DNA of 64,000 nt from Actinomycetospora corticicola (lineage in GTDB: Bacteria; Actinomycetota; Actinomycetes; Mycobacteriales; Pseudonocardiaceae), in contig NZ_JACCBN010000001.1 of the NCBI RefSeq assembly GCF_013409505.1, forward strand, positions 2,542,001-2,606,000, written 5' to 3'. The notes under the pieces were generated by a model. That model worked only from the letters and a program-made list of their open reading frames with translations. It was not told the origin of the DNA and did no database searches. This document shows, piece by piece, positions 52,161 through 64,000 of the stretch. Position 1 is the stretch's first letter, and each line of letters opens with the position of its first letter. Made by a program: the position numbers and the translations under genes.

Positions 52161-52949
52161 TCAGCGGGCCGGCGTCGGCAGCACCACCCGCAGCAGTCCG
52201 GCCGCGCGGGCCCCGGCCCGGACCACCTCCACCGCTCCCCCGGCCCCGGTGCGCTCCCCCTCGGCGTGCGCGAGCGCGTCGAGGGCCGGGCCCGCGGCGT
52301 CGGCCGATCCGAACTGGAACGGGACCTGCGTGAGGTAGCAGGCCACGGCCGCGGTCTTGCGCCCGAGCTCCGCCGCGACGTCCACGGCGACCTCCGCCCC
52401 GTCGACGTGCGCCATCGCCGGCGCGTCCGGCCGGCGCACCACGTAGGGCGTGTCCCGCCACCAGGCACACCGGTCGGGGTCCACGAGCGCCGCCACCACC
52501 GCCGAGACCCACTGGTGGTCGACGTGGTCGCCGAGCGCCTGCGGGGCGAGCACCAGGTCCGCGCCCGCCAGCACCGGCGTCAGCGCCTCGACGAGCGGCC
52601 GGCCCACGACGTCCCCGCCCCGGCGTCCGGCGAAGAGCGCCGCGGCGTCGTCGTAGCCCCGGTGCGGCGCCTCCAGCAGGCCCAGGTGCCGCGGCGAGGC
52701 ACCCAGGACGCCGAGGGCCCCGCGGTCCTCGGCCCGCCGCAGCGCCATGTAGTCGACGTCCGCGGCCAGCCCCTTGTCGAGCTGGGTGGACAGGGCGAAC
52801 GGGGTCGCGACCGCCGGGTCGACCGAGCCGGTGAAGCAGGTGACCACGGTGACCTCGGAGACGTCGGGCGCCTCCGCCAGCCGCGCGAGGGTGCCGCCGA
52901 CGGAGAACACGGCGTCGTCGAGGTGCGGGCTGACCGCCACGGCCCTCAC
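52161..52949 (-). CDS. PIG-L-family deacetylase
   Basis: A 262-residue zinc-dependent N-deacetylase of the family that includes MshB and BshB. The metal motif is SPHLDDAVFSVGG (HxDD, at about residues 7-19) and the second ligand motif is GDHVDHQWV. ALRRAEDRGALGVLG is the usual following helix. It is the last of nine coupled minus-strand genes; GTG 52949 overlaps the glycosyltransferase stop (GTGA). By analogy it would remove an acetyl group from an N-acetylamino sugar attached by the glycosyltransferase. The substrate is unknown. Confidence 0.9.
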   Translation of the reverse strand: MRAVAVSPHLDDAVFSVGGTLARLAEAPDVSEVTVVTCFTGSVDPAVATPFALSTQLDKGLAADVDYMALRRAEDRGALGVLGASPRHLGLLEAPHRGYDDAAALFAGRRGGDVVGRPLVEALTPVLAGADLVLAPQALGDHVDHQWVSAVVAALVDPDRCAWWRDTPYVVRRPDAPAMAHVDGAEVAVDVAAELGRKTAAVACYLTQVPFQFGSADAAGPALDALAHAEGERTGAGGAVEVVRAGARAAGLLRVVLPTPAR

Positions 52950-54190
52950 AGCAGGTGGGGCGCCGCGCGGAACCGGCAGGACGGGTCCACGGGCGGGTCG
53001 GGGATCGCGGGGACCGGCACGTCGCGGACGACGTCGTAGACGTCGGTGACCCGGTCGGCGATGACCGGCCACGACCACACGGCGCGGACCTCCTCGAGCG
53101 CGCGGCCGGCCATGCCGACCCGCAGCACCCCGTCGTCGAGAACGCGTGCGATGCCGGCGGCGAGGGCGGCCGGGTCCTTGGCCGGCACGAGCACGCCGTT
53201 GTCGTCCGGGCGCACGCAGTCGCGCACCCCGACGACGTCGGTGGTCACCACCGGCAGCCCGGAGGCCATCGCCTCGAGGATCGTGTTGGAGAAGCCCTCG
53301 GCGTAGGTGGGGCTGACGAAGACGTCGCCGCGCCCGTACACCTCGTGGGCCCGCTCGTAGGGCGTGTAGCCGAGCTGGTCGACGTGCTCGTCGAGCCCGA
53401 GCTCGGTCACGCGCTCGGCGACGAGGGCGGTGTCCGGCCCGATCCCGGACACGACGAGCCGGACCTCCCGCCCGCCGTCGAGCAGCCAGCGGTGGGCCTC
53501 GAGCAGGTCGAGCACGCCCTTCCGGGCGTCGACGCGACCGTGGTAGAGCAGCGTCGGGGGTTCGCGGAGCGCCCCCGGCTCGTGGGCGGGGGTGAACCGT
53601 TCGGTGTCGGTGGCGCCGGAGACGATCGTCCAGCGGGCCGGGTCCACCTCGTGGCGGGCCGACACCTCGGCCGCGAACGACGGCGAGCCGATCACGAGCG
53701 CGGGCGCATGTGTGAACACGGCGCGGACCAGCTCGCGGTGGGTGTCGCAGCAGGTCCCCACCCAGTGCCCGTCGCCGCCCTGCACGCTCACGACGGCGGG
53801 CAGCCCGAGGTCGTGCGCGGCGCGCAGCACCGCCAGCCCGTTGGGGTAGGCGTACTGGGCGTGCAGCACGTCGAAGGGCCGCTCGGCGTGCAGGCGCGCG
53901 ACCGTGGCGCGCATGGTCTCGACGTCGGCCTCGAAGTCGGCGGGACGACCTGCGGCGACCTCCTGCTCGCCGTGCGCCTCCAGGGCGACCACCTCGACGC
54001 CGTCGGGCACGCGCTCGGGCGGGGGCGGCCCGCCGCCGTACACCGCGCGCCCGGCCGGGTCGCCCCGGTACTGGGAGACCATCGTGACGTCGTGGCCGGC
54101 GCGTACCAGGTGGCGCAGCAGGTTCTCGGCGTAGGCGCTCATGCCCGACACGGCGGGCCAGTAGCGGCGGGAGACGAAACAGATCCTCAC
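52946..54190 (-). CDS. GT4-family glycosyltransferase
   Basis: A 414-residue retaining glycosyltransferase of GT-B fold. N-terminal acceptor lobe: CFVSRRYWPAVSGMSAYAEN and LLRHLVRAGHDVTMVS. C-terminal nucleotide-sugar lobe: TLLYHGRVDARKGVLDLLEA, GYTPYERAHEVYGRGDVFV and the E-x7-E motif in YAEGFSNTILEAMASGLPVV. MshA and BshA of thiol biosynthesis belong to the same family. GTG 54190 overlaps the isomerase stop and its own stop overlaps the deacetylase start. In context it probably links an amino sugar to an inositol-like or modified acceptor. Confidence 0.93.
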   Translation of the reverse strand: MRICFVSRRYWPAVSGMSAYAENLLRHLVRAGHDVTMVSQYRGDPAGRAVYGGGPPPPERVPDGVEVVALEAHGEQEVAAGRPADFEADVETMRATVARLHAERPFDVLHAQYAYPNGLAVLRAAHDLGLPAVVSVQGGDGHWVGTCCDTHRELVRAVFTHAPALVIGSPSFAAEVSARHEVDPARWTIVSGATDTERFTPAHEPGALREPPTLLYHGRVDARKGVLDLLEAHRWLLDGGREVRLVVSGIGPDTALVAERVTELGLDEHVDQLGYTPYERAHEVYGRGDVFVSPTYAEGFSNTILEAMASGLPVVTTDVVGVRDCVRPDDNGVLVPAKDPAALAAGIARVLDDGVLRVGMAGRALEEVRAVWSWPVIADRVTDVYDVVRDVPVPAIPDPPVDPSCRFRAAPHLL

Positions 54191-55053
54191 GGGGCCTCCA
54201 GGGCGCGCAGCGTCGCGATGGCCTCCGGCACGAGCCGGTCGGCGCGGTGGGAGTCGCGGGAGAGCTCGAGGCTGACCAGCCCGCGGTGGTCGACCGCGCG
54301 CAGCGCCGACACGACCGCGCCGAGGTCCATGTCGCCCTCGCCGGGCGCCCGGTGGTCGTGCACCCCGCGCGGCATGTCCTCGACCGCGACCGCGCCGAGC
54401 TGGGGCGCGAACGCCCGGACGGCGTCGGCGGGTGCCCAGCGGCCCGAGACGATGCAGTGGCCGGTGTCGAGCGCCAGCGCGACGTCCGGGATCTCGGCCT
54501 GCAGCGCCGACCAGTCGTCGAGGTCGTCCACGAGCATGCCGGGCTCCGGCTCCACCGCCACGGTGACGCCCCGACCCCGCGCGTACTCGGTGACGGCGGC
54601 GACCCCGAACAGGAGCTGCCGCCACGCCTCGTCGCGGTCGAGGCCGGGCGCGAGGACGCCGGCCCAGAACGACACGGCCTCGCTCCCGAGGTCGGCGGCC
54701 ACGTCGACGCACAGCCGCAGGAACGCCACCCGTCGCGCCCGGTCGGCGGCGTCCGCGCTGACCAGCGTCGGGTGGTGCTTGCGACGTGGGTCGAGCAGGA
54801 ACCGGGCGCCGGTCTCGACGACACTGCCCAGCCCGAGTCCGCGGAGCCGGTCGGCGAGGGCCGCGGTGCGGCGCGCCAGCTCGGGCGCGAACGGGTCGTG
54901 GTGGGCGACGTCCAGGGTCAGCGCGACCCCGGCGTACCCGTGGTCGGCGAGCAGCTCGAGGGCGTCGTCGAGCCGGTGGGAGGACAGGCCGTTGGTGTTG
55001 TAGGCCCAGCGCAGGCCGCCTCGATGGTCCGGCTCCGCTTCGCTGCGTGTCAC
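54187..55053 (-). CDS. Sugar-phosphate isomerase/epimerase-like TIM-barrel protein
   Basis: A 288-residue protein of the xylose-isomerase-like TIM-barrel family, which includes IolE, IolI and EboE. Metal-binding candidates are visible in VAVEPEPGMLV, ALALDTGHCIVSG, VAVEDMPRG with HDHRAPGEGDMD, and VSLELSRDSHRAD. The first strand is RWAYNTNGLSSHRLDDALEL. The reaction is unknown: isomerisation, epimerisation or dehydration of a sugar or cyclitol would all fit. GTG 55053 overlaps the YcaO stop and its stop overlaps the glycosyltransferase start, both as GTGA. Confidence 0.88.
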   Translation of the reverse strand: MTRSEAEPDHRGGLRWAYNTNGLSSHRLDDALELLADHGYAGVALTLDVAHHDPFAPELARRTAALADRLRGLGLGSVVETGARFLLDPRRKHHPTLVSADAADRARRVAFLRLCVDVAADLGSEAVSFWAGVLAPGLDRDEAWRQLLFGVAAVTEYARGRGVTVAVEPEPGMLVDDLDDWSALQAEIPDVALALDTGHCIVSGRWAPADAVRAFAPQLGAVAVEDMPRGVHDHRAPGEGDMDLGAVVSALRAVDHRGLVSLELSRDSHRADRLVPEAIATLRALEAP

Positions 55054-56606
55054 GCGAACGTCACGTCCTCTCCCGCGGCGACGCGCCCGACGGCGTGCCG
55101 GGTCGGCTCGCGGTAGAGGGGGTAGAGGTCGCCGACGACCCGGTCGACGCGGTCGCGGTCGAGCCACGCGCGGTCGCTGCCGCGCTCGTCGCCGAGCCGC
55201 GCCGCCTCGTCGTCGGGAAGGAGCACCGGCAGCGCCCCGGCGTGCGGAGGGTCGCCGAGCCCGACGAGGCCGAAGGCCGGGTCGTGGGCGTCGGCCGCCC
55301 GGTCCAGCAGGCGGTCCACCCCGCGACGCCCGATGCGCCCGTAGGACATCGTCTCGACCTCGAGACCGGGCACGATCACCTTGACCGCACAGGCGCGGTC
55401 CACCCCGGTCGAGCTCCGCTCCGCTGCGTCTCCCCCGGTGTCCGCCAGGACCGCGAGCACGTCGAAGTCCGCCAGCCGACCCATGAGGTCGTCGAGCAGC
55501 GCGACCGGCCCGCCGACCGCGGTGGTGGGCAGCTCGTCGAACCGCACCCGCGTGTGCTCCGCGAGGACGGGCTCGAGCAGATCGCGCAGCTCGTCGGCGC
55601 CGCGGGCGGTCCAGTCCTGCATCGCCCGGAACGCCCGGGCCTCCTGCGGCGGCAGCGGCGTGGCGAGTTCGCGGTCCCAGTAGGAGTCGGGCGCGAACGG
55701 GCGGACTCCTGCGAGGTCGGCGTGGGCGAAGGTCTTGCGCACCCGCGCGGAGCAGAACTCGAGCAGCGCCTTCTGCAGGGCCACCTCCCGGTCGGGGTGG
55801 GCGGCCTCGCCGCACGCCGTCAGGGCGATCGGGTGCGGCGGCTCCCCGGCGACGTCGTGGCCGACCACGTGCAGGTCGGTGACGCCGAACGCGGTCGACG
55901 CGAGCTTCGGCACCACCCGGATCCCCACGTGGCGCAGGTGCGCGAGCAGCTCCCGGGTGTCGGGGTCGCGGACCAGCTCGTCGTCGGGCCCCGTGTCGAG
56001 GACGACGCCGCGGTCCAGGGCCCGGAAGGCGGTGCTGTTCCCGTCGCGCTGGAGCAGCTCCCCGAGGGCGTGCGCCAGGGCCCGCTCGACGGTGTCCCCG
56101 GCGCCGCAGCCGTTGGTGATGACGGTGGTGAGCCGCTCCGCCGGGTCCTGCCAGGGCAGGTCCACCGGGTAGGCGGCGGCGAACTCGGCCGGGACCAGCA
56201 CCGTCTCCCCGGTGCGGACGCGGACCGCGGGCAGCCACCAGCGCCCGGCGTCGGGGTCGTAGGCGGAGCCGGCGGGCAGCGTCAGGCGCAGCGGGTCCAC
56301 CACCGCGTCCGGCCCGAGGCGGGCCCGCAGCGCGGAGTAGGAGTCGCGGGTGCGCTCCAGGCCCCGCAGGTGCACCGAGAGCAGCATCTCCTCGGCCAGC
56401 TCGGCGCGGGCCGCGACCCGGGCGCGCCCGACGGCGAGCCCGTAACCGAACGACCCGGAGCGCGGCCAGACCCCGGTCGGGTCGGCGAAGTCGGCGGCGA
56501 CCACGTGGACGCCGGTGCGGTCGAGGCCGCGCAGCTCGATCTCGTCGGTCTCCCCCGTGGGGAGCGCGTCGGTGTAGGCCCGCGCCACGTCGTCCAGGAC
56601 CGTCAC
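55050..56606 (-). CDS. YcaO-family ATP-dependent enzyme
   Basis: A 518-residue YcaO protein. These enzymes phosphorylate an amide oxygen with ATP and let a nucleophile (Cys/Ser side chain, sulfide, amine) attack. ATP-site patterns are ARVAARAELAEEML (ExxE), NGCGAGDTVERALAHALGEL with LQRD, and ALQKALLEFCSARVR. The strand VKVIVPGLEVETMSYGRIG near residue 440 is typical. No proline-rich C-terminus of azoline cyclodehydratases is present, and no precursor peptide, E1-like or TfuA partner is nearby. It sits in the sugar/cyclitol operon, so a small-molecule amide may be the substrate. GTG 56606. Confidence 0.85.
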   Translation of the reverse strand: MTVLDDVARAYTDALPTGETDEIELRGLDRTGVHVVAADFADPTGVWPRSGSFGYGLAVGRARVAARAELAEEMLLSVHLRGLERTRDSYSALRARLGPDAVVDPLRLTLPAGSAYDPDAGRWWLPAVRVRTGETVLVPAEFAAAYPVDLPWQDPAERLTTVITNGCGAGDTVERALAHALGELLQRDGNSTAFRALDRGVVLDTGPDDELVRDPDTRELLAHLRHVGIRVVPKLASTAFGVTDLHVVGHDVAGEPPHPIALTACGEAAHPDREVALQKALLEFCSARVRKTFAHADLAGVRPFAPDSYWDRELATPLPPQEARAFRAMQDWTARGADELRDLLEPVLAEHTRVRFDELPTTAVGGPVALLDDLMGRLADFDVLAVLADTGGDAAERSSTGVDRACAVKVIVPGLEVETMSYGRIGRRGVDRLLDRAADAHDPAFGLVGLGDPPHAGALPVLLPDDEAARLGDERGSDRAWLDRDRVDRVVGDLYPLYREPTRHAVGRVAAGEDVTFA

Positions 56607-57433
56607 GCGAGCTCCTCCAGCGGGATCGGCCCGGCCACCGGCTGCGCGGAGAGCAGCCGGTCGTAGAGCGCGAGGACGTGGGCGGTGGTGACGCCCTCGA
56701 CGAACTCGAACGGGGTGGCCACGGCGTCGAAGTCCAGCTCGCCGATGACCTTGTACGCGTCCCGGATCTCCTGGTGGGAGAGCGGGATCTGGGCGTGGAA
56801 GGCCTTGTGCGCCGACAGCCCGGTGGCCCGGCCGTCGGCGTCCAGCGACGCCTTGAGCATGTCCCCGCAGAACAACACCCGGCGCCGCTCGTCGTGCAGC
56901 ACCATGTGGCCGTCGAAGTGCCCGCCGGTGCGGTGGGCGACGAGGCCGGGGGCGAACTCGTGGCGGTCGTCGAGCGGCCACGTGACGCGGAACGCCTTGG
57001 TCCACTCGAGGTCGCGGACCCCGATCGCCATGACCGGCGGGTCGAGCGCGTCCTGCAGCTGGAACAGCGCGCCGTACCCGTGCACGTGGCTCGCCGCGAG
57101 CGCCGCCAGGCCGCCGCGACGACGGATCTCGGCGAGCCCGTCGTCGGGATAGAAGCCGGCGCCCTCCCAGCCGATCAGGCCGGCGTCCGTCTCGATCACC
57201 CATCCGCAGGTGCCGAGCCCGACCTGCGGCTCGCACCAGAACCCGGTGATGCCCGGGCGCACCTCGGCCCACCGGGCCGCGCGGCCCCGGGCGATCTCGT
57301 CGAGCGGCCGGAAGTCCCAGCCGTCGTCGGGCAGGGCGTTGCGGACGTCGGTGCAGACCGGGCACGACGGCGGGGTGGCGAACCAGCGCTGCCAGTGGCC
57401 GCAGTTGGTACAGGTCCAGGGGCTCAGGGGCAC
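56603..57433 (-). CDS. Metallo-beta-lactamase-fold protein with N-terminal zinc ribbon and altered active site
   Basis: A 276-residue protein. Residues 8-27 form a rubredoxin/zinc-ribbon unit (CTNC and CPVC). The rest is an MBL fold: TCGWVIETDAGLIGWEGAGF, a metal motif reading SHVHGYGALFQ where THxHxDH is expected, GGHFDGHMVLHD for the later His, and VLFCGDMLKAS for the Asp. The third and fourth residues of HxHxDH are Tyr and Gly, so at most one complete metal site remains. GTG 57433 overlaps the oxidoreductase stop by 10 nt. Its role, perhaps hydrolysis or redox/metal handling in the pathway, is unknown. Confidence 0.82.
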   Translation of the reverse strand: MPLSPWTCTNCGHWQRWFATPPSCPVCTDVRNALPDDGWDFRPLDEIARGRAARWAEVRPGITGFWCEPQVGLGTCGWVIETDAGLIGWEGAGFYPDDGLAEIRRRGGLAALAASHVHGYGALFQLQDALDPPVMAIGVRDLEWTKAFRVTWPLDDRHEFAPGLVAHRTGGHFDGHMVLHDERRRVLFCGDMLKASLDADGRATGLSAHKAFHAQIPLSHQEIRDAYKVIGELDFDAVATPFEFVEGVTTAHVLALYDRLLSAQPVAGPIPLEELA

Positions 57434-58443
57434 GGTGCCTCCAGTGCGGTGCCGGGGGTGAGGGCGTCCAGGAGCAGTTCGTGGAGCGCGAGGTCGCGCG
57501 CGAGCGGATAGGGCCAGGGCCGCTCACCACGCACGGCGGCGCCGAACGCGACGATCTGCCGCTCGAAGGGCCCTCCCGCGTCGAAGGCGACCGCCTCGGC
57601 CGCCCCGGTGGTCGCGTCGAGGAACGTGAGCGTCCCGCCCGCGACCTGCCCGAGGGTGTTCTCCGCGACGAGCTGCCCGCGGGTGCCGACGAGCTCGAGC
57701 CGGCGGCGGGGCAGGGCGTCGGGCAGGGCGAAGCTGACGTGCGCGTCGAACAACGTGCCCGACGCGGTGGCCCCGACGAGCACGGCGCCGTCGTCGGCCG
57801 CGGGGTCGGCGTAGGGGTGGACCCGGCGGCGGGTGACGGCGGTGAGCGTGACGACGTCCTCCCCGAGCAGCGTGCCGGCGAGGTCCAGCCCGTGCGGGGC
57901 CAGGTCGATCGCCGCACCGCCCCCGGCGAGAGCCGTGTCCACCCGCCAGTTCGCGTCGTCCCGCGCGTGCGGGGGCGTCCACGCGGGCGGCAGCCAGCAG
58001 CCGTAGACGATCCGCACGGCGGTGACCGTGCCGAGGCGGCCCTCCGCCACGAGGTCCGCGATCGTCCGGTGCGCCGGGTGGAAACGCTGGTCGAACGCGG
58101 TGGCCACGAGTCCGTCGCCCGCGGCCTCGACCATCACGCGCGCGTCGGCGACGGTGTGCGCCATCGGCTTCTCGCACAGCACCGGCACGCCCGCCGCGGC
58201 GACCGCGCGGACCACGGGCAGGTGCGCGTGGTTCGGGGTCGCCACGTAGACCGCGTCCGGGCCCTTGCCGAGCAGCACGTCGAGGTCGTCGGTGGCCGCG
58301 ACCCCGTCGGGCAGGCCGCCGAGCGCGGCCGGGTCCCGGTCGCAGACCGCCACGAGGTGGGCGTCGGGGTCGGCAGCGATGGCGGGGAGCACGTGGTCGC
58401 GGGCCACCCAGCCCAGCCCGACCACGCCCCACCCGGTGCTCAC
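57424..58443 (-). CDS. Gfo/Idh/MocA-family oxidoreductase
   Basis: A 339-residue NAD(P)-dependent dehydrogenase of the family that oxidises sugars and inositols. The Rossmann motif is WGVVGLGWVARDHVLPAI, the EKP motif VLCEKPMAHT, and the catalytic region AAIDLAPHGLDLAGTLLGED. The C-terminal beta-sheet domain contains RRRLELVGTRGQLVAENTLG. With an inositol-phosphate synthase at the head of the operon, oxidation of an inositol hydroxyl is a natural guess. GTG 58443 overlaps the methyltransferase stop (GTGA). Confidence 0.92.
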   Translation of the reverse strand: MSTGWGVVGLGWVARDHVLPAIAADPDAHLVAVCDRDPAALGGLPDGVAATDDLDVLLGKGPDAVYVATPNHAHLPVVRAVAAAGVPVLCEKPMAHTVADARVMVEAAGDGLVATAFDQRFHPAHRTIADLVAEGRLGTVTAVRIVYGCWLPPAWTPPHARDDANWRVDTALAGGGAAIDLAPHGLDLAGTLLGEDVVTLTAVTRRRVHPYADPAADDGAVLVGATASGTLFDAHVSFALPDALPRRRLELVGTRGQLVAENTLGQVAGGTLTFLDATTGAAEAVAFDAGGPFERQIVAFGAAVRGERPWPYPLARDLALHELLLDALTPGTALEAPCP

Positions 58444-59576
58444 CAGCGCCCCGGCAGGTCGACCAGCACCCGGCGGCGCACGGCCTCGTCGTGCTCGATG
58501 TGCGCGGGCAATCGCTCCGGCAGGTAGGTCGCGGCGCGCCCGCCGTACTCGTCGCCCCAGCGCGGGTTCGGCCACTCCCGCACCCCGTCGCGGTAGAGCG
58601 GGTTGGGGTGCAGCCGCGCGCCCGGCGCGGGGCGCAGCAGGCTCTCCCGCGGGGGCGCGCCGGCCCGGTCGAGCGCGAGCGCCACGGCCTCGGTCGCGTC
58701 GAGGTCCGTCCCGACGGCGGGTCGCGCGGGTCGGGGTGCCAGCGCGGCGGCCGTCAGCTCCTCCTCGGTGTACGTCGCGGCGCCCGGGAGCATCGCCGCC
58801 CACTCCGCGGGACGGCGTGGGTGCCCGGCGGCCCCGAGCGGGTGCCCGGCGTTGTGGCAGTGCGCCGCCAGCACGGCGCCGCCCGGTCCGGCGAGCTCGG
58901 CGGCCCGCTGCAGCACGTCGGCGGGGTCCGGCAGGAAGTACAGGGTGTCGTGACAGGAGACCCAGGCGTCACCGTCGGCCTCCAGGGGCCACGGCGAGCG
59001 GAGGTCCGCGCAGACGAGGCGCACGTCCGCGTCGGTCGGGAGCACGAACCGGCGGGCCAGCCAGAGCTTGGCGAACACGATGTCGATCCCGGTCGCCCCG
59101 GCGCACTCCCCCGGCTCCGCGACGAGGCGGCGCAGCAGGTGCCCGGCCCCGCACGCGAGGTCGACCACCGGCCGGCCCGCGGGCGGGTGGGTGGCCACGA
59201 GGGCGGTGACCGCGAGCCCGGACGGGTCGTGGTCGCGGTGCAGGAAGTAGTCGCCGACCCGCCCCAGTCCGAGGGCGGCGGCCGCGTCCCGCAGCGTCGT
59301 CGCCGGGTCGGCGGCGGACTCGTACACCGCGGCGAGCCGCTCCGGGGGCGGGGGCGCCTCGTCCCACCAGTCGTCGCTGTCGGCGAGCAGCACCGCCGCG
59401 GCGTCGGCGACGCGCCCGTCGTCGAGCGCGGCGAGGACGCGTTCCACCACGGTCGCGCGGCCGGTGCGCAGGAACGGGATGCCGTCGAGCACGGGCCAGC
59501 GCCGCGCGCCGTCGGTGAGCGAGTGCAGCGTGTCCGGCGTGAGCGGCCGCCGGGAGACCGGGTCGCGGAGCGTCAC
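58440..59576 (-). CDS. Trm112-like domain fused to a SAM methyltransferase
   Basis: A 378-residue protein. The first about 40 residues (DPVSRRPLTPDTLHSLTDGA and RRWPVLDGIPFL) look like the small Trm112/UPF0434 domain, but the zinc cysteines are missing. After a helical linker, the class I methyltransferase core shows VVDLACGAGHLLRRLVAEPG, GIDIVFAKLWLARRF and DAWVSCHDTLYFLPDPADVL. The C-terminal stretch is Pro/Arg-rich. It probably methylates an intermediate of this pathway; the target atom is unknown. GTG 59576 overlaps the HD gene stop by 4 nt. Confidence 0.85.
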   Translation of the reverse strand: MTLRDPVSRRPLTPDTLHSLTDGARRWPVLDGIPFLRTGRATVVERVLAALDDGRVADAAAVLLADSDDWWDEAPPPPERLAAVYESAADPATTLRDAAAALGLGRVGDYFLHRDHDPSGLAVTALVATHPPAGRPVVDLACGAGHLLRRLVAEPGECAGATGIDIVFAKLWLARRFVLPTDADVRLVCADLRSPWPLEADGDAWVSCHDTLYFLPDPADVLQRAAELAGPGGAVLAAHCHNAGHPLGAAGHPRRPAEWAAMLPGAATYTEEELTAAALAPRPARPAVGTDLDATEAVALALDRAGAPPRESLLRPAPGARLHPNPLYRDGVREWPNPRWGDEYGGRAATYLPERLPAHIEHDEAVRRRVLVDLPGRW

Positions 59577-60472
59577 GGCAGCAGGCCCGCCTCGGCGAGC
59601 ACCGCGTCGTGGTAGGCCGAGACCGGGGACACGTGGACGAGCTCGAGGTCGACCAGCGCGTCCGACGCGACGAACGCCGCGGCCCGGGCGTGGTGGTGGA
59701 CCTGCAGCACCCGGTCGAGCACGTCGGCCGCGTGGAAGGCGCGCCCGAGCGGGGTGTCGGCGTCGGCGCGGGCGACGAGCAGGAGGCGGATCCGGTCCGC
59801 GAGCGCCGTGGGCAGCGTGGCGAGCTCGCGCTCGGTCAGCCGCTCGATCACCGGCTCGAGGTGGTCGCCGAGCAGGATCTCGCCGGCGAACCCGGCGTCG
59901 GGCAGGGCGACGTTGTGCAGGTGGTGGGCGAGCCCGAGGAGGAACGCCTCGCCGAGGTCGGCGCCGACGGACCCCGCGAGCAGCGCGCCGTAGACCGCCA
60001 CCGCCCAGCAGTGCTCGCCGTGGTCCTCCGGGGGTTCGACGATCAGCCGGGGCCGCCCGGGGGCGGTGGCACCCGCGCGCGGTTGATCGACCAGCGTCCC
60101 GGCGAAGGCGGGCGCCTGCGCCGGGTCACCGGTCGGGTCGGGCGCGCCCGCGAGCCGGGCCCGCAGGTCCGGGGGCAGGGCGGAGCCCACCTCGTCGATC
60201 GCGCGCGCCCGCACCTCGCGGGCGTCCGCGGCGGAGAGCCCGGCGTCCCGGAGCACCGCGCCGTCCAGCCCGGCCAGACGTGCCCCGGCCACGGCCGCGG
60301 CGCACTCGGCCTCGGCGACGGTCGTGGGGTCCTCCCCCGCGACGAGCGCCGACCAGGCCCGCAGGAAGGCGTGGTCGGCGAGGGAGCCGGGGCGGCCCGC
60401 GACGTGGACGCGCTTGAGGTCGCCGATCTCCCGGAAAGCCCCGACGAGCTGCCCGGGCCCCGCGGTGTCCAT
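59573..60472 (-). CDS. HD-domain protein
   Basis: A 299-residue, mostly helical protein. HD-type metal ligands are suggested by GEHCWAVAVYGALLAGSVG, FLLGLAHHLHNVALPDAGF, and a later AFHAADVLDRVLQVHHHA. These match HD phosphohydrolases and, loosely, myo-inositol oxygenase, which is also an HD fold. The N-terminal part (MDTAGPGQLVGAFREIGDL) is not recognised. ATG 60472 shares one base with the stop of the inositol-phosphate synthase gene, so it probably acts on that product: dephosphorylation or oxidation are both possible. Confidence 0.8.
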   Translation of the reverse strand: MDTAGPGQLVGAFREIGDLKRVHVAGRPGSLADHAFLRAWSALVAGEDPTTVAEAECAAAVAGARLAGLDGAVLRDAGLSAADAREVRARAIDEVGSALPPDLRARLAGAPDPTGDPAQAPAFAGTLVDQPRAGATAPGRPRLIVEPPEDHGEHCWAVAVYGALLAGSVGADLGEAFLLGLAHHLHNVALPDAGFAGEILLGDHLEPVIERLTERELATLPTALADRIRLLLVARADADTPLGRAFHAADVLDRVLQVHHHARAAAFVASDALVDLELVHVSPVSAYHDAVLAEAGLLP

Positions 60473-61650
60473 CAGTGGTCGAGCCACGCGCGCAGGACCT
60501 GCTCCTGGCGGTACAACGCGTGCTCGGGCTCGCCCCCGTCGCGGGTGATGGGCTGCTTGAAGAAGTAGCCGAGCTGCTCCTGGGCCCCGCCCTCGCCGCG
60601 GCGCGCGGCCTCGTCGACCAGGCGCGCCAGCTCGAGGACCAGGGGTGCCGCGAGGATCGAGTCCCGGCACAGGAAGTCGACCTTGACCTGCATCCGCTGA
60701 CCGAGGAAGCCGGTCAGGTCGATGTTGTCCCAGGCCTCCTTCTGGTCCCCGCGCGGCCGGTAGTAGTCGATCCGGACGACGTGGTCCTCGACCTCGTAGC
60801 CGAGACACTGGTCGAGCACCGTGCCCTTGGTCTGCAGCTTGCTCGACAGCGAGTCGGCGTCCTCGAGGATCTGGCCGTCGCGGTTGCCGAGGATGTTGGT
60901 CGAGTACCAGCCGTCCACGTGCAGCGACCGCGACCGGAAGGCGGGCGCGAGGACCGTCTTCATCATCGTCTGGCCGGTCTTGCCGTCCTTGCCCGAGACC
61001 GGGACGCCGCGCTGGTGGGCCAGCTCGAGCAGGGCCGGGATGTCCGCCGAGGCGCTCGGCGTGAAGTTGACGTACGGCGAGTCCGAGGTGATCGCCGCGT
61101 AGGCGTAGACCATGCTCGGGCTGATCACCGGGTCGTCGGCGTCGATGGCCGCCTCGAAGGCCTCCGGCGTCTGCAACGCGGGCAGCGTGAGGTCCGGCCA
61201 GCGCTCGGTCGAGGCGAGGTTGACCACGACGACGCGGTCGAGGCCCTCAGCCGCGCGGAAGCGCTCGATGTCCGACCGGACGTGGTCGACGCGTCCGCGG
61301 ACCGACGAGATCGGGATGACGTTCGCCCCGACGGCGTTGCGGCAGTACTCCGGGTCGGCGACCGCCGGCCACGGGGCCACCGCCGCGAGTCCCGCCCCCG
61401 CCGCCTCCACCACCCGGGGCTCGAGCACCCCGTGCAGGTGGGCGGCCTTGGCCAGGTCGTCCCCGTCGAGGTCCCAGCCCCCGAACGTCAACGACGTGTA
61501 GGGCACGAGCGAGGTGACGTCGGCGAACGGCAGGCCCTCGTAGCCGCACGCCCCGATCTTCAGGAGCTCGATCCCGGCGATGGCCGTGGTGGCGACCGCG
61601 CCCCCGACCCCGACGACGGCCACCCCGACCTTGCGCTGCTCGTCCGACAC
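60472..61650 (-). CDS. INO1-like inositol-3-phosphate synthase
   Basis: A 392-residue NAD-dependent synthase that should convert glucose-6-phosphate to inositol-3-phosphate. VAVVGVGGAVATTAIAGIEL binds NAD; NFTPSASADIPALLELA, SGKDGKTGQTMMKTVLAP, STNILGNRDGQILED, YYRPRGDQKEAWDNIDLTGF and LCRDSILAAPLVLEL follow the eukaryote-like INO1 pattern. This differs from the housekeeping actinobacterial Ino1 (Rv0046c type), so it is probably a pathway-specific paralogue. GTG 61650 has AGGAGG (61657-61662) at 6 nt, the only strong ribosome-binding site of the nine-gene unit, marking it as the operon head. Confidence 0.88.
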   Translation of the reverse strand: MSDEQRKVGVAVVGVGGAVATTAIAGIELLKIGACGYEGLPFADVTSLVPYTSLTFGGWDLDGDDLAKAAHLHGVLEPRVVEAAGAGLAAVAPWPAVADPEYCRNAVGANVIPISSVRGRVDHVRSDIERFRAAEGLDRVVVVNLASTERWPDLTLPALQTPEAFEAAIDADDPVISPSMVYAYAAITSDSPYVNFTPSASADIPALLELAHQRGVPVSGKDGKTGQTMMKTVLAPAFRSRSLHVDGWYSTNILGNRDGQILEDADSLSSKLQTKGTVLDQCLGYEVEDHVVRIDYYRPRGDQKEAWDNIDLTGFLGQRMQVKVDFLCRDSILAAPLVLELARLVDEAARRGEGGAQEQLGYFFKQPITRDGGEPEHALYRQEQVLRAWLDH

Positions 61651-61679
61651 CCGAGACCTCCTCGTAGCAGGCGCGACCC

Positions 61680-61725
61680 GGGGAGCACCCGCGGACCGAC
61701 GGGATGTGCTCCCCGCCCGATCGGG
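61680..61725. promoter_or_regulatory. Dyads in the divergent promoter of the nine-gene operon
   Basis: GGGGAGCA (61680-61687) and TGCTCCCC (61707-61714) are perfect arms 19 bp apart, directly followed by the palindrome CCCGATCGGG (61716-61725). They lie 30-75 bp upstream of the INO1-like gene and about 80-130 bp from the epimerase start. Confidence 0.5.
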
Positions 61726-61807
61726 ACCCGCAAACGGCGGTTCTCCCCCCGCGTGGCGTCGGCGACCCGGGCGCGTGTCCGGCCCGGTCGGTCGGGTAGC
61801 CGCGCGG

Positions 61808-62803
61808 GTGCATCTCCTCGTCCTCGGCGGTGGCGGCTTCCTCGGCCGCCACGTCGCCGCCGCCGGTCTCCACGCCGGCCACGACGTCACCGTGCTCTCG
61901 CGCGGCGGCTCCGCCCCGGTCGACGGGGTCGAGGCGCTGACCGGCGACCGGCAGGGTGACCTGTCCGCGCTGGACGGCCGCCGCTTCGACGCCGTCCTCG
62001 ACACGTTCTCCGACCCCGACGCCGTGGCCCGCACCGCCGCACTGCTCTCCGGCGCCGCCGGGGCCTACGGCTACGTGTCCGGGATGAGCGTGTACCACCC
62101 CGACGGCCCGGCCGTGCCGGGCGCGGGCGACCCCGTGCGGCGACCCGGGGACGCGGACGACGTGCTGCAGGAGCGGTCGCTGGACAAGCTGGGCGCGGAG
62201 TCCGCGGTGGCCGAGCACTTCGACGGGCCGGCCCCGGTGTTCCGGGTGGGGATCATGGTCGGCCCGTTCGACCCCACCGACCGGTTCACCTGGTGGCCGG
62301 TCCGCCTGGCCCGGGCGCTCGCCGGGGACGCCGACCGGACCGTCCTCGCGCCGGGCGACCCGGACCGCGTCGTCCAGTACAGCGACGCGCGGGACATCGC
62401 CGCCTTCGTGGTGTCCGCGCTCGACCGCCGGCTGACCGGGGTGTTCGACACCGTGGGGCCGGGGCGGGCGCAGCCCCTGTCGGCGGTGCTCGACGAGTGC
62501 CTGAGCGCGGTGGGTGGCGCACCGGGCGACGTCTCGTGGGCGTGGGCGGACGAGGCGTATCTCCGGAACGGGCTGCGCGACGTCCCCGAGGAGGAGCGGC
62601 CCCTGTGGTTCCCCGAGGACCAGATCCCCCAGGACGCGATCGACTCCTCCGCCGCGATCGCCGCGGGCCTCCGGTTCCGGCCCGCCGCCGAGACCGCCCG
62701 CGACGTCCTCGCGCAGGTCCGCTCCGAGGGGCGCGCCGAGCTGGCGGCGGGTCTGGACGACGACCGGGAGCGGGCGCTCGTGGCGGGGCGGTCGGAGCTC
62801 TAG
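61808..62803 (+). CDS. NAD-dependent epimerase/dehydratase-family protein
   Basis: A 331-residue short-chain dehydrogenase-like protein of the extended type. The dinucleotide motif is LLVLGGGGFLGRHVAAAGLH, the substrate-site strand is GAYGYVSGMSVYH (Ser and Tyr of the active site, with Lys in SLDKLGAESAV), and FRVGIMVGPFDPTDRFTWWP is typical of isoflavone-reductase/epimerase relatives. GTG 61808 has no clear Shine-Dalgarno. It is divergent from the INO1-like operon across 157 bp, so it may take part in the same pathway; that is positional evidence only. Confidence 0.88.
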   Translation: MHLLVLGGGGFLGRHVAAAGLHAGHDVTVLSRGGSAPVDGVEALTGDRQGDLSALDGRRFDAVLDTFSDPDAVARTAALLSGAAGAYGYVSGMSVYHPDGPAVPGAGDPVRRPGDADDVLQERSLDKLGAESAVAEHFDGPAPVFRVGIMVGPFDPTDRFTWWPVRLARALAGDADRTVLAPGDPDRVVQYSDARDIAAFVVSALDRRLTGVFDTVGPGRAQPLSAVLDECLSAVGGAPGDVSWAWADEAYLRNGLRDVPEEERPLWFPEDQIPQDAIDSSAAIAAGLRFRPAAETARDVLAQVRSEGRAELAAGLDDDRERALVAGRSEL

Positions 62804-64000
62804 GCGGGTTGCGTCGCCGGGTGGACCAGCGCCCGGCTCAGCGCCGGGGCGAGCGGCCCGCCCTCCACGACGACGTCGCCCACCCCGAGCCAGTCGGCCA
62901 TGTCGCGCAGGGCGCCCGCGAGCTCCGCCGCCACGCGGGACTCGCCCGCGCCGCGCTCGGCGCACTCCGGCTCGGCGAACGCGGCGGGGACGCGCAGGAC
63001 GCCCGCCGCCCGGTCGGTCTTCAGGTCGACCCGGCCCACCAGCTGCCCGTCGAGCAGGAACGGGAAGACGTAATAGCCGTGCGTGCGCTGCTCGGCGGGC
63101 GTGTAGATCCCGATCCGGTAGGTGAAGTCGAACATGCGCTCGGTGCGGGGCCGGAACCAGATGAGCGGGTCGAACGGAGCCAGCAGCGCCCGCCCCGTGA
63201 CCCGACGGGGCACTCGCGTGCCCGGCAGCCGGTAGGCGGGCGCCCCCCACCCGGCGACCTCGACCTCCTCCAGCTCCCCCGCGTCGACCAGCTCCGTGAC
63301 GGCCACGCGGCTCTCCGCGGGCGGGAGCCGGTAGTGGTCGCGCAGGTCGGGCTCCGTGGCCACCCCGTGCGCCGCCGCCGCGCGCAGGGTGAGCGCCCGC
63401 ATCGACTCCGCCCGGTCGGGGTGCCGGGCGAACACCTCGGGCGGGATGACGTCCTCGCTCACCGCGTAGGCGCGGCGGAAGCCGCGCCGCGTCCCCGTCG
63501 TCAGGACCCCGGTGGCGAAGAGGTGCTCGCAGGCGACCTTGACGTCGGAGCGGTGCCACCAGCCGCCGTGGGCGCGGGCGCGGCGCTCCCCGCCGTCGCC
63601 GAGGACCGCCTCGACCTCGCGCGCCTCGAGCGGGCCGTGCGCGGCGACCGCGTCGTGCACGGCGTCGAGGATGTCGGGCCGGTGGTCCATGGCGTTGCCG
63701 AGCCAGCGACTGGTGCGCGCGGTGTTGTCACGCATCCGCCACCGCAGCAACGGCCAGTCCTCCACCGGGACCAGGCTCGCCTCGTGCGCCCAGAACTCGA
63801 CGAACGCGCGCCGCCGGCGGTCGGCCGCCGTCTGCGGCCAGGCGAGCGCGTCGAGCACGTCCCGGTCGTAGCTCCCGAGCCGGGCGAACACCGGCGCGTA
63901 GTGCGCGCGGACGGCGACGTTCACCGAGTCGAGCTGGAGCAGCCCGAGGTGGCGGACGAGGCGGGTGAGCCCGCCCCGGTTCGGTGACCCCGGGCGCGGT
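62800..64000 (-). CDS. YcaQ/AlkX-type DNA glycosylase, truncated at the right edge
   Basis: The reading frame enters from beyond the right edge, so the N-terminus is missing; 400 codons are visible. It belongs to the HTH_42 winged-helix family that includes YcaQ, which unhooks interstrand DNA crosslinks. LLQLDSVNVAVRAHYAPVFA, at the edge, holds the Q-x-D catalytic motif (QLD). Further stretches are EFWAHEASLVPVEDWPLLRW, RALLAPFDPLIWFRPRTERM and FDFTYRIGIYTPAEQRTHGY with YVFPFLLDGQLVGRVDLKTD. The stop overlaps the convergent epimerase stop by 4 nt. Confidence 0.88.
   Translation of the reverse strand, partial: PRPGSPNRGGLTRLVRHLGLLQLDSVNVAVRAHYAPVFARLGSYDRDVLDALAWPQTAADRRRRAFVEFWAHEASLVPVEDWPLLRWRMRDNTARTSRWLGNAMDHRPDILDAVHDAVAAHGPLEAREVEAVLGDGGERRARAHGGWWHRSDVKVACEHLFATGVLTTGTRRGFRRAYAVSEDVIPPEVFARHPDRAESMRALTLRAAAAHGVATEPDLRDHYRLPPAESRVAVTELVDAGELEEVEVAGWGAPAYRLPGTRVPRRVTGRALLAPFDPLIWFRPRTERMFDFTYRIGIYTPAEQRTHGYYVFPFLLDGQLVGRVDLKTDRAAGVLRVPAAFAEPECAERGAGESRVAAELAGALRDMADWLGVGDVVVEGGPLAPALSRALVHPATQPA

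Follow-up and report, generated by a model that had tools for sequence, protein, structure and literature searches.

A 64,000-nucleotide stretch of the genome of Actinomycetospora corticicola (contig NZ_JACCBN010000001.1, positions 2,542,001 to 2,606,000 of the forward strand; hereafter, the window) carries at positions 52161-61650 an operon of nine minus-strand genes, each overlapping the next. They encode an INO1-like inositol-phosphate synthase, an HD-domain protein, a methyltransferase (MT), a Gfo/Idh/MocA oxidoreductase (Gfo/Idh), a metallo-beta-lactamase (MBL) fold protein, a YcaO protein, a TIM barrel protein, a GT4 glycosyltransferase, and a PIG-L de-N-acetylase. The analysis established the gene content and synteny of the cluster across genomes, the fold families and invariant catalytic-type residues of its proteins, the presence of separate mycothiol genes in the host, and a link of the INO1 and TIM barrel genes to EBO operons. 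The operon probably specifies a conserved, cytoplasmic pathway, independent of ribosomally synthesized and post-translationally modified peptides (RiPPs), that leads to an amino-sugar glycoside of an oxidized cyclitol.

Gene content, order, and invariant residues

Relatives of the YcaO protein were numerous (of 7992 candidates scored, 1762 reached E ≤ 0.001), the nearest named ones being from Actinomycetospora. A scan of named genomes, one per species, gave 292 YcaO loci, the best 80 of which were kept (these and other loci are cited below by L numbers). Other cluster genes accompanied YcaO in 63 of the 80: 36 in Actinomycetes, 18 in Alphaproteobacteria, 4 in Myxococcota, 2 in Rubrobacteria, and one each in Planctomycetota, Chloroflexota, and Verrucomicrobiota (labels assigned by hand). 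Genes at the loci were called with a simple open reading frame (ORF) caller that gave some antisense calls, and the conclusions rest on tblastn matches. Presence was tallied in the 47 cluster loci with at least 5.5 kb before and at least 4.5 kb after YcaO, leaving out 16 short-flank loci; genes more than 9.5 kb from YcaO (which drops HD and MT of L064), opposite-strand TIM matches (L044 and L045), and one Gfo match (L075) went uncounted. INO1 was present in 44 loci, HD in 46, MT in 44, Gfo/Idh in 46, MBL in 42, YcaO in 47, TIM in 38, GT4 in 40, and PIG-L in 40. All nine genes occurred together in 32 of the 47 loci (23 Actinomycetes, 8 Alphaproteobacteria, and 1 Rubrobacteria), and the genes present kept the canonical order and strand in 45, the exceptions being L064 and L082, so the arrangement is not due to chance. 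Even the ten-base Gfo/MBL overlap recurs, in 11 Actinomycetes, 5 Alphaproteobacteria, 3 Myxococcota, and 1 Planctomycetota. The nine families are thus conserved together across genomes, as the original prediction required, and no match to a characterized cluster was found. Its statement that no described pathway is known to have this set also agrees with the open-licence papers listed in the literature searches (subscription journals were outside the scope), which yielded neither such a pathway nor a description of YcaO with the other cluster families; one listed paper that does mention YcaO deals with Bacillus SigB.

In the host genus, 12 of 18 genomes (host included) carry the YcaO gene, a patchy distribution, and cluster-type INO1 occurs in 5 of 296 sampled genomes of the host class, the four besides the host carrying all nine genes. 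One locus, L064, is ambiguous and its YcaO may lie outside this kind, because 7 kb separate it from an INO1-HD-MT run and a cluster-type GT4 gene lies on another contig; it was kept in both the 63 and the 47 counts. The 17 remaining loci of the 80 (L047, L050, L051, L055, L057, L059, L062, L065, L067, L070, L071, L074, L075, L076, L083, L089, and L092), from Klenkia, Aureimonas, Microvirga, and others, lie outside the cluster, several of them near importer-type ABC genes. Cluster-type GT4 and INO1 were absent from all nine of these 17 genomes that were checked, and the group may represent a different use of this YcaO. Extra YcaO paralogues were seen in clusters of Myxococcota and Verrucomicrobiota (L060, 4956-6635; L063; L066; L084, 13341-15023); an McrA-type model was the best fit of the L060 paralogue and the second best of the L084 one, the two that were scanned.

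Judged from these distributions, HD, Gfo/Idh, YcaO, GT4, and PIG-L appear to form a near-constant core. HD and Gfo/Idh went uncounted only in L064, and GT4 and PIG-L only in L064 and in six Actinomycetospora loci that end after YcaO; in A. lemnae, the one of these six that was checked, the contig with YcaO also bears TIM, GT4, and PIG-L genes (77%, 83%, and 61% identical), at a distance of about 16 kb. In six clusters of the Methylobacterium group, no MBL gene stands between Gfo/Idh and YcaO, yet all six genomes carry a full-length copy (46-47% identical), suggesting that MBL can move within the genome. Among five genomes inspected, the relocated MBL gene stands near an apparent RND-type pump gene (judged by eye) in four (L188-L191) and about 0.6 kb after PIG-L in L192. 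The MT differs: no full-length counterpart, and only two weak partial matches, turned up in the six genomes whose clusters lack it. The enzyme for the methylation originally proposed, present in 44 of the 47 loci, is thus an optional member.

The nine family names first given to the proteins were all borne out, each scoring above the Pfam gathering score (INO1, HD_3, Methyltransf_25, GFO_IDH_MocA, Lactamase_B, YcaO, AP_endonuc_2, GT4 domains, and PIG-L). The INO1 protein matches PF07994 at 212 bits and PF01658 at 114 bits, its best solved relative is the inositol-3-phosphate synthase 7nwr (295 bits), and its catalytic-region residues are invariant in 50 alignment rows. The YcaO protein (PF02624, 143 bits) has the archaeal MJ1094 YcaO as its closest solved relative (90 bits); residues E69, E72, E183, E267, E283, R288, and R290, which we take to be ATP binders, are invariant in 17 rows, and E69 is nearly so in 81 rows, which take in 17 from outside the cluster. 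Also invariant are E91, K92, P93, D180, and H184 of Gfo/Idh (60 rows), the MBL zinc-ribbon cysteines C8, C11, C24, and C27 (52 rows), and H9, D11, and D12 of PIG-L (52.6 bits; 52 rows), in which H145 is nearly so. C147, C148, C325, C405, and the C-terminal H412, L413, and L414 of GT4 are invariant across phyla (51 rows); four such cysteines and the C-terminal HLL appear unusual for a glycosyltransferase and possibly form a metal site. The MT and the TIM barrel match Methyltransf_25 and AP_endonuc_2 at 38.3 and 119 bits, respectively, and the weakest of the nine matches is that of HD_3 (26.4 bits, cut-off 22.5). The HD protein is probably YfbR/HDDC2/OxsA-like; a reading of it as a MIOX-like di-iron oxygenase was set aside as less likely, its best listed structural matches being YfbR/HDDC2/OxsA phosphohydrolases, with MIOX absent among the 50 listed. 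Truncated, mis-started, or unrelated rows were removed before residues were counted (INO1, 2; HD, 8; MT, 1; Gfo/Idh, 3; MBL, 2; TIM, 4; GT4, 3; PIG-L, 1).

In the window, the eight junctions from INO1 to PIG-L overlap by 1, 4, 4, 10, 4, 4, 4, and 4 bases, within the range of 1-10 nucleotides first reported (Table 1); an alternative PIG-L start at 52940 would leave a five-base gap instead of an overlap. The strong ribosome-binding site noted at the operon head is an AGGAGG located six bases 5' of the INO1 start. A divergent epimerase-family gene lies upstream, with an AlkZ-like DNA glycosylase gene beside it, and downstream come a LysR gene and genes for succinate dehydrogenase. Neighboring genes examined with Pfam (MdoG, GT2, UDG, epimerase, SLT, histidine kinase, glutaminase, IclR, and others) were not common to the groups of genomes, and upstream alignments for each group gave short conserved blocks, with no nameable block shared between genera. 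Neither a tRNA nor an Rfam match reaching the gathering score turned up in the window, which is part of a 6.17-Mb single-contig genome.

Table 1. Genes of the operon and two neighboring genes in the window
Gene product	Position	Strand	Remarks
INO1-like inositol-phosphate synthase	60472..61650	-	392 aa; first gene; GTG start
HD-domain protein	59573..60472	-	299 aa; ATG start; HD motif reads HH
S-adenosylmethionine (SAM) methyltransferase (MT)	58440..59576	-	378 aa; optional member
Gfo/Idh/MocA oxidoreductase	57424..58443	-	339 aa
Metallo-beta-lactamase (MBL) fold protein, N-terminal zinc ribbon	56603..57433	-	276 aa
Stand-alone YcaO	55050..56606	-	518 aa
Xylose-isomerase-like TIM barrel	54187..55053	-	288 aa
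GT4 glycosyltransferase	52946..54190	-	414 aa
PIG-L family de-N-acetylase	52161..52949	-	262 aa; last gene
Epimerase-family protein	61580..62803		frame; divergent, upstream of operon
AlkZ-like DNA glycosylase	62803..63924	-	

The INO1/TIM barrel pair and its counterpart in EBO operons

At E ≤ 1e-40, INO1 was found in 72 of the 296 genomes of the host class, and in 67 of the 72 it was not of the cluster type. Among 25 such non-cluster loci (L123-L147), which are the best-scoring of their kind and not a random draw, 24 adjoin a SCO3242-type UbiA gene and 22 adjoin a TIM barrel gene; one of the three without the latter is cut by a contig end. Six longer stretches (L148-L153), five of them from the same 25 loci, show EBO genes, with models passed for the SCO3242 prenyltransferase (L148 and L153), the EboA domain (L148), and EboE (L148 and L150); further genes there are presumed EboB-like and EboF-like from likeness. 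In five of the six stretches, the TIM barrel is 46-49% identical to that of the window, and L150 lacks both UbiA and TIM. The INO1 tree separated cluster and EBO proteins into two clean groups (50 versus 26 rows; split 100/100); it was rooted at the midpoint, drew a long-branch warning for L160, and left out seven EBO-side loci, six of which repeat others, L153 being the one that does not. The TIM barrel of EBO operons may account for proteins that PMC5133447 describes as "hybrid" between xylose isomerase and EboA.

Only two of the clusters examined, L042 from an Isosphaeraceae metagenome-assembled genome (MAG) and L084 from a Verrucomicrobiota MAG, carry in the INO1 slot a 3-dehydroquinate (DHQ) synthase-like cyclase joined to HD, and both lack TIM. 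These cyclases score 483 and 546 bits against NF004852 (3-dehydroquinate synthase; cut-off 333). In PMC5133447, EboD is placed near EEVS and DDGS and usually annotated as 3-dehydroquinate synthase, and a cyclitol product is suggested for the EboD form of EBO. A protein search with the L084 cyclase gave a large, mostly unnamed family with no names telling whether it is EboD. No cyclase of the L042/L084 type or EboD-like cyclase matched in the actinobacterial EBO stretches examined, and none of the L084 type was found in 346 Actinomycetota genomes at E ≤ 1e-60, in a search that had no positive control. From these few loci, INO1 and TIM look like a portable unit that a single cyclase may replace or that may be partly lost. 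Such a module, with a related pair in actinobacterial EBO operons, appears to be new here. The original prediction cast the TIM barrel as a tailoring isomerase; the protein is indeed present; it travels with INO1 and may serve cyclitol supply and not later tailoring.

Proposed pathway and competing products

Every reaction in the scheme that follows, the order of the steps, and the product are what we infer from the gene set. INO1 would convert glucose 6-phosphate to an inositol phosphate, from which the TIM barrel, through removal of the phosphate, isomerization, or dehydration, would give a cyclitol equivalent to the product of the DHQ-synthase-like cyclase of the two relatives. Gfo/Idh would act on a hydroxyl of the ring, oxidizing it to a ketone or an enolone, and the MT, where present, would O-methylate the oxidized cyclitol. 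GT4 would then attach an N-acetylhexosamine, and PIG-L would deacetylate the sugar and free its amine. With ATP, YcaO would phosphorylate the carbonyl or enolate, and an amine, probably the one freed by PIG-L, would condense there. HD and MBL would be hydrolytic helpers, HD probably acting on a phosphorylated intermediate. This scheme retains from the original prediction the start from an INO1-type enzyme and the GT4/PIG-L logic of early mycothiol synthesis; the step order given there and the terms "amide-modified" and "pseudosaccharide" are conjectural. The dephosphorylation first proposed is doubtful as a task of the HD protein, because HD is kept in the two loci with a DHQ-synthase-like cyclase, and cyclases of this type give a product without phosphate (PMC5133447). 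A link to methylobamine was considered and dropped, as the available part of PMC9664959 gives no biosynthetic genes.

Several observations weigh against this pathway. A YcaO acting on a non-peptide would be unusual, and its carbonyl and nucleophile are putative. The metal-ligand patterns of the HD protein (D to H) and of MBL (which lacks the D in HxHxDH) are altered, so that neither is certain to be a normal hydrolase, and the structural match of the HD protein falls in a range for which the tool cautions that the likeness may be no more than helical. For the swap of cyclases, the evidence comes from two MAG loci, whose cyclases, scoring over the 3-dehydroquinate synthase cut-off, may serve the shikimate pathway. 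The L042 genome carries INO1 (39%) and TIM (45%) together with a UbiA-like gene on a separate contig, so that only L084 is a clean swap; in the L084 genome, INO1 gives no more than a weak match (1e-10) and TIM gives none at E ≤ 1e-6. Finally, L048 has TIM with no INO1 match in its genome, and in four Kineococcus genomes the INO1 matches are weak, none being better than E 8e-11; three of these four have a TIM (38-39% identical), which in L044 and L045 adjoins HD on the opposite strand.

The best-surviving alternative, still a tentative one, is a gadusol- or mycosporine-like product that absorbs ultraviolet (UV) light, for which oxidation, enolization, and in most cases O-methylation would turn the cyclitol into a cyclohexenone, and YcaO would add an amine at the expense of ATP. 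In mycosporine synthesis, ATP-driven amine addition is performed by an ATP-grasp enzyme. Here, the place of the cyclase would be held by INO1/TIM or by the DHQ-synthase-like cyclase, and the set of cyclase, oxidoreductase, and methyltransferase repeats the logic of gadusol, which is made by an EEVS cyclase and one MT-Ox through a postulated route of oxidation, enolization, and methylation (PMC4426668). The absence of an exporter gene among the nine fits as well. Many of the listed hosts, which are the best-scoring matches, belong to Geodermatophilus, Modestobacter, Methylobacterium, and Skermanella, genera of a type found in desert, rock, leaf, or lichen habitats, and the first three of these are also frequent among the best 120 listed HD relatives. 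Against such a product stand the loci without MT and the occurrence of the cluster in Streptomyces, Micromonospora, Corallococcus, and an Erythrobacter MAG. By analogy, a gadusol-like, UV-protective product is plausible. In a bolder and rather doubtful form of the idea, the operon would make a new class of photoprotectant, a glucosaminyl-cyclitol enaminone derived from inositol phosphate and not from sedoheptulose phosphate, in which YcaO activates the enolone and the freed sugar amine closes the chromophore, the cyclase module is interchangeable and shared with the EBO operon, and the users are bacteria of several phyla that live in deserts, on leaves, and in lichens. If so, this would be, to our knowledge, the first YcaO acting on neither a peptide nor a protein. 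The EBO operon is itself required in Nostoc for the sunscreen scytonemin (PMC6282210).

A redox or cofactor glycoside resembling mycothiol, in which a MshA/MshB-like pair forms glucosamine-inositol (GlcN-inositol) for acylation or condensation by YcaO, is unlikely. INO1, GT4, and PIG-L do match the early steps of mycothiol synthesis, but their scores fall far below the mycothiol cut-offs (37.1 against 638 bits for INO1 with TIGR03450, 75.2 against 462.5 for GT4 with MshA, and 18 against 224 for PIG-L), and neither a cysteine ligase nor an acetyltransferase is matched among the nine. Moreover, a separate mycothiol INO1 is present in the host (G000 C1:4504069-4505118; 695 bits), as are, away from the cluster, MshA and MshC over their cut-offs. 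Given these scores and separate genes, membership of the operon in mycothiol synthesis was rejected.

The pathway is probably not a RiPP system either, and a YcaO that modifies a peptide or protein coded elsewhere, with sugar enzymes decorating it, is very improbable. In favor of such a system, MJ1094 YcaO is the nearest relative of solved structure, and described YcaO enzymes act mostly on peptides and proteins (PMC8442711). Yet the flanks of 36 loci (1.5 kb at each end) contained 691 small ORFs (20-110 aa), and these gave a single cross-genus pair, which we judged to be spurious, a null result that makes this reading unlikely, although the search would miss fast-evolving or distant precursors. 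Most gene junctions leave no room for a precursor, and Pfam recognized no E1-like, Ocin-ThiF, TfuA, or RRE partner among the nine proteins, weak RRE folds having had no dedicated search. An antibiotic-type aminocyclitol glycoside, for example one bearing an amidine as kasugamycin does, is equally improbable. An inositol synthase, a glycosyltransferase, and a deacetylase are present and YcaO has amidine chemistry in other systems (PMC8442711, PMC11002830), but no aminotransferase, resistance, or exporter gene occurs among the nine, and synteny over seven phyla or classes suggests a widely useful accessory trait.

Relation to known systems

The cluster shares the INO1, GT4, and PIG-L logic of mycothiol biosynthesis (Ino1, MshA, MshB, MshC, and MshD), to which it adds Gfo/Idh, MT, TIM, HD, MBL, and YcaO. 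With inositol catabolism (IolG and IolE), it has the Gfo/Idh and TIM families in common, whereas the equivalog cut-offs are not reached (85.5 of 355 bits for Gfo/Idh with IolG; 27.3 of 290 for TIM with IolE), and Pfam recognized no further inositol-catabolic families among the nine. The likeness to gadusol and mycosporine-like amino acid (MAA) pathways lies in a cyclase, an oxidoreductase, and a methyltransferase acting on a cyclitol, and these pathways likewise use an ATP-dependent condensing enzyme. In the cluster, INO1 replaces sedoheptulose-phosphate cyclase, Gfo/Idh and MT replace MT-Ox, and YcaO replaces ATP-grasp, none of the replaced enzymes being found among the nine by Pfam, and GT4 and PIG-L are added.

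From stand-alone YcaO enzymes of the MJ1094/McrA and streptamidine types, with which it shares the fold and the ATP-site residues, the YcaO of the operon is set apart by the sugar and cyclitol enzymes around it and by the lack of a precursor in our searches. For the stand-alone YcaO proteins of actinobacteria, a study from 2021 reported no evidence for non-RiPP modification in that phylum (PMC8442711), and the operon makes this question directly testable. The actinobacterial EBO operon has an INO1 38-45% identical to that of the cluster, usually with TIM close by, and differs in its other genes: the five queries, for EboA, EboB, EboE, EboF, and, in the place of EboC, UbiA, were unmatched in cluster loci L154-L157 (tblastn, E ≤ 1e-6), and none of the nine window proteins matched an Ebo model. 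The INO1/TIM module also offers a handle on the unsolved chemistry of EBO operons. More broadly, nine genes kept in order over several phyla, together with 1869 relatives of the HD protein among 7996 scored candidates, point to a common bacterial metabolism with no known product, apparently an undescribed sugar-inositol compound, and, if the pathway is as proposed, to a role of YcaO beyond peptides and proteins.

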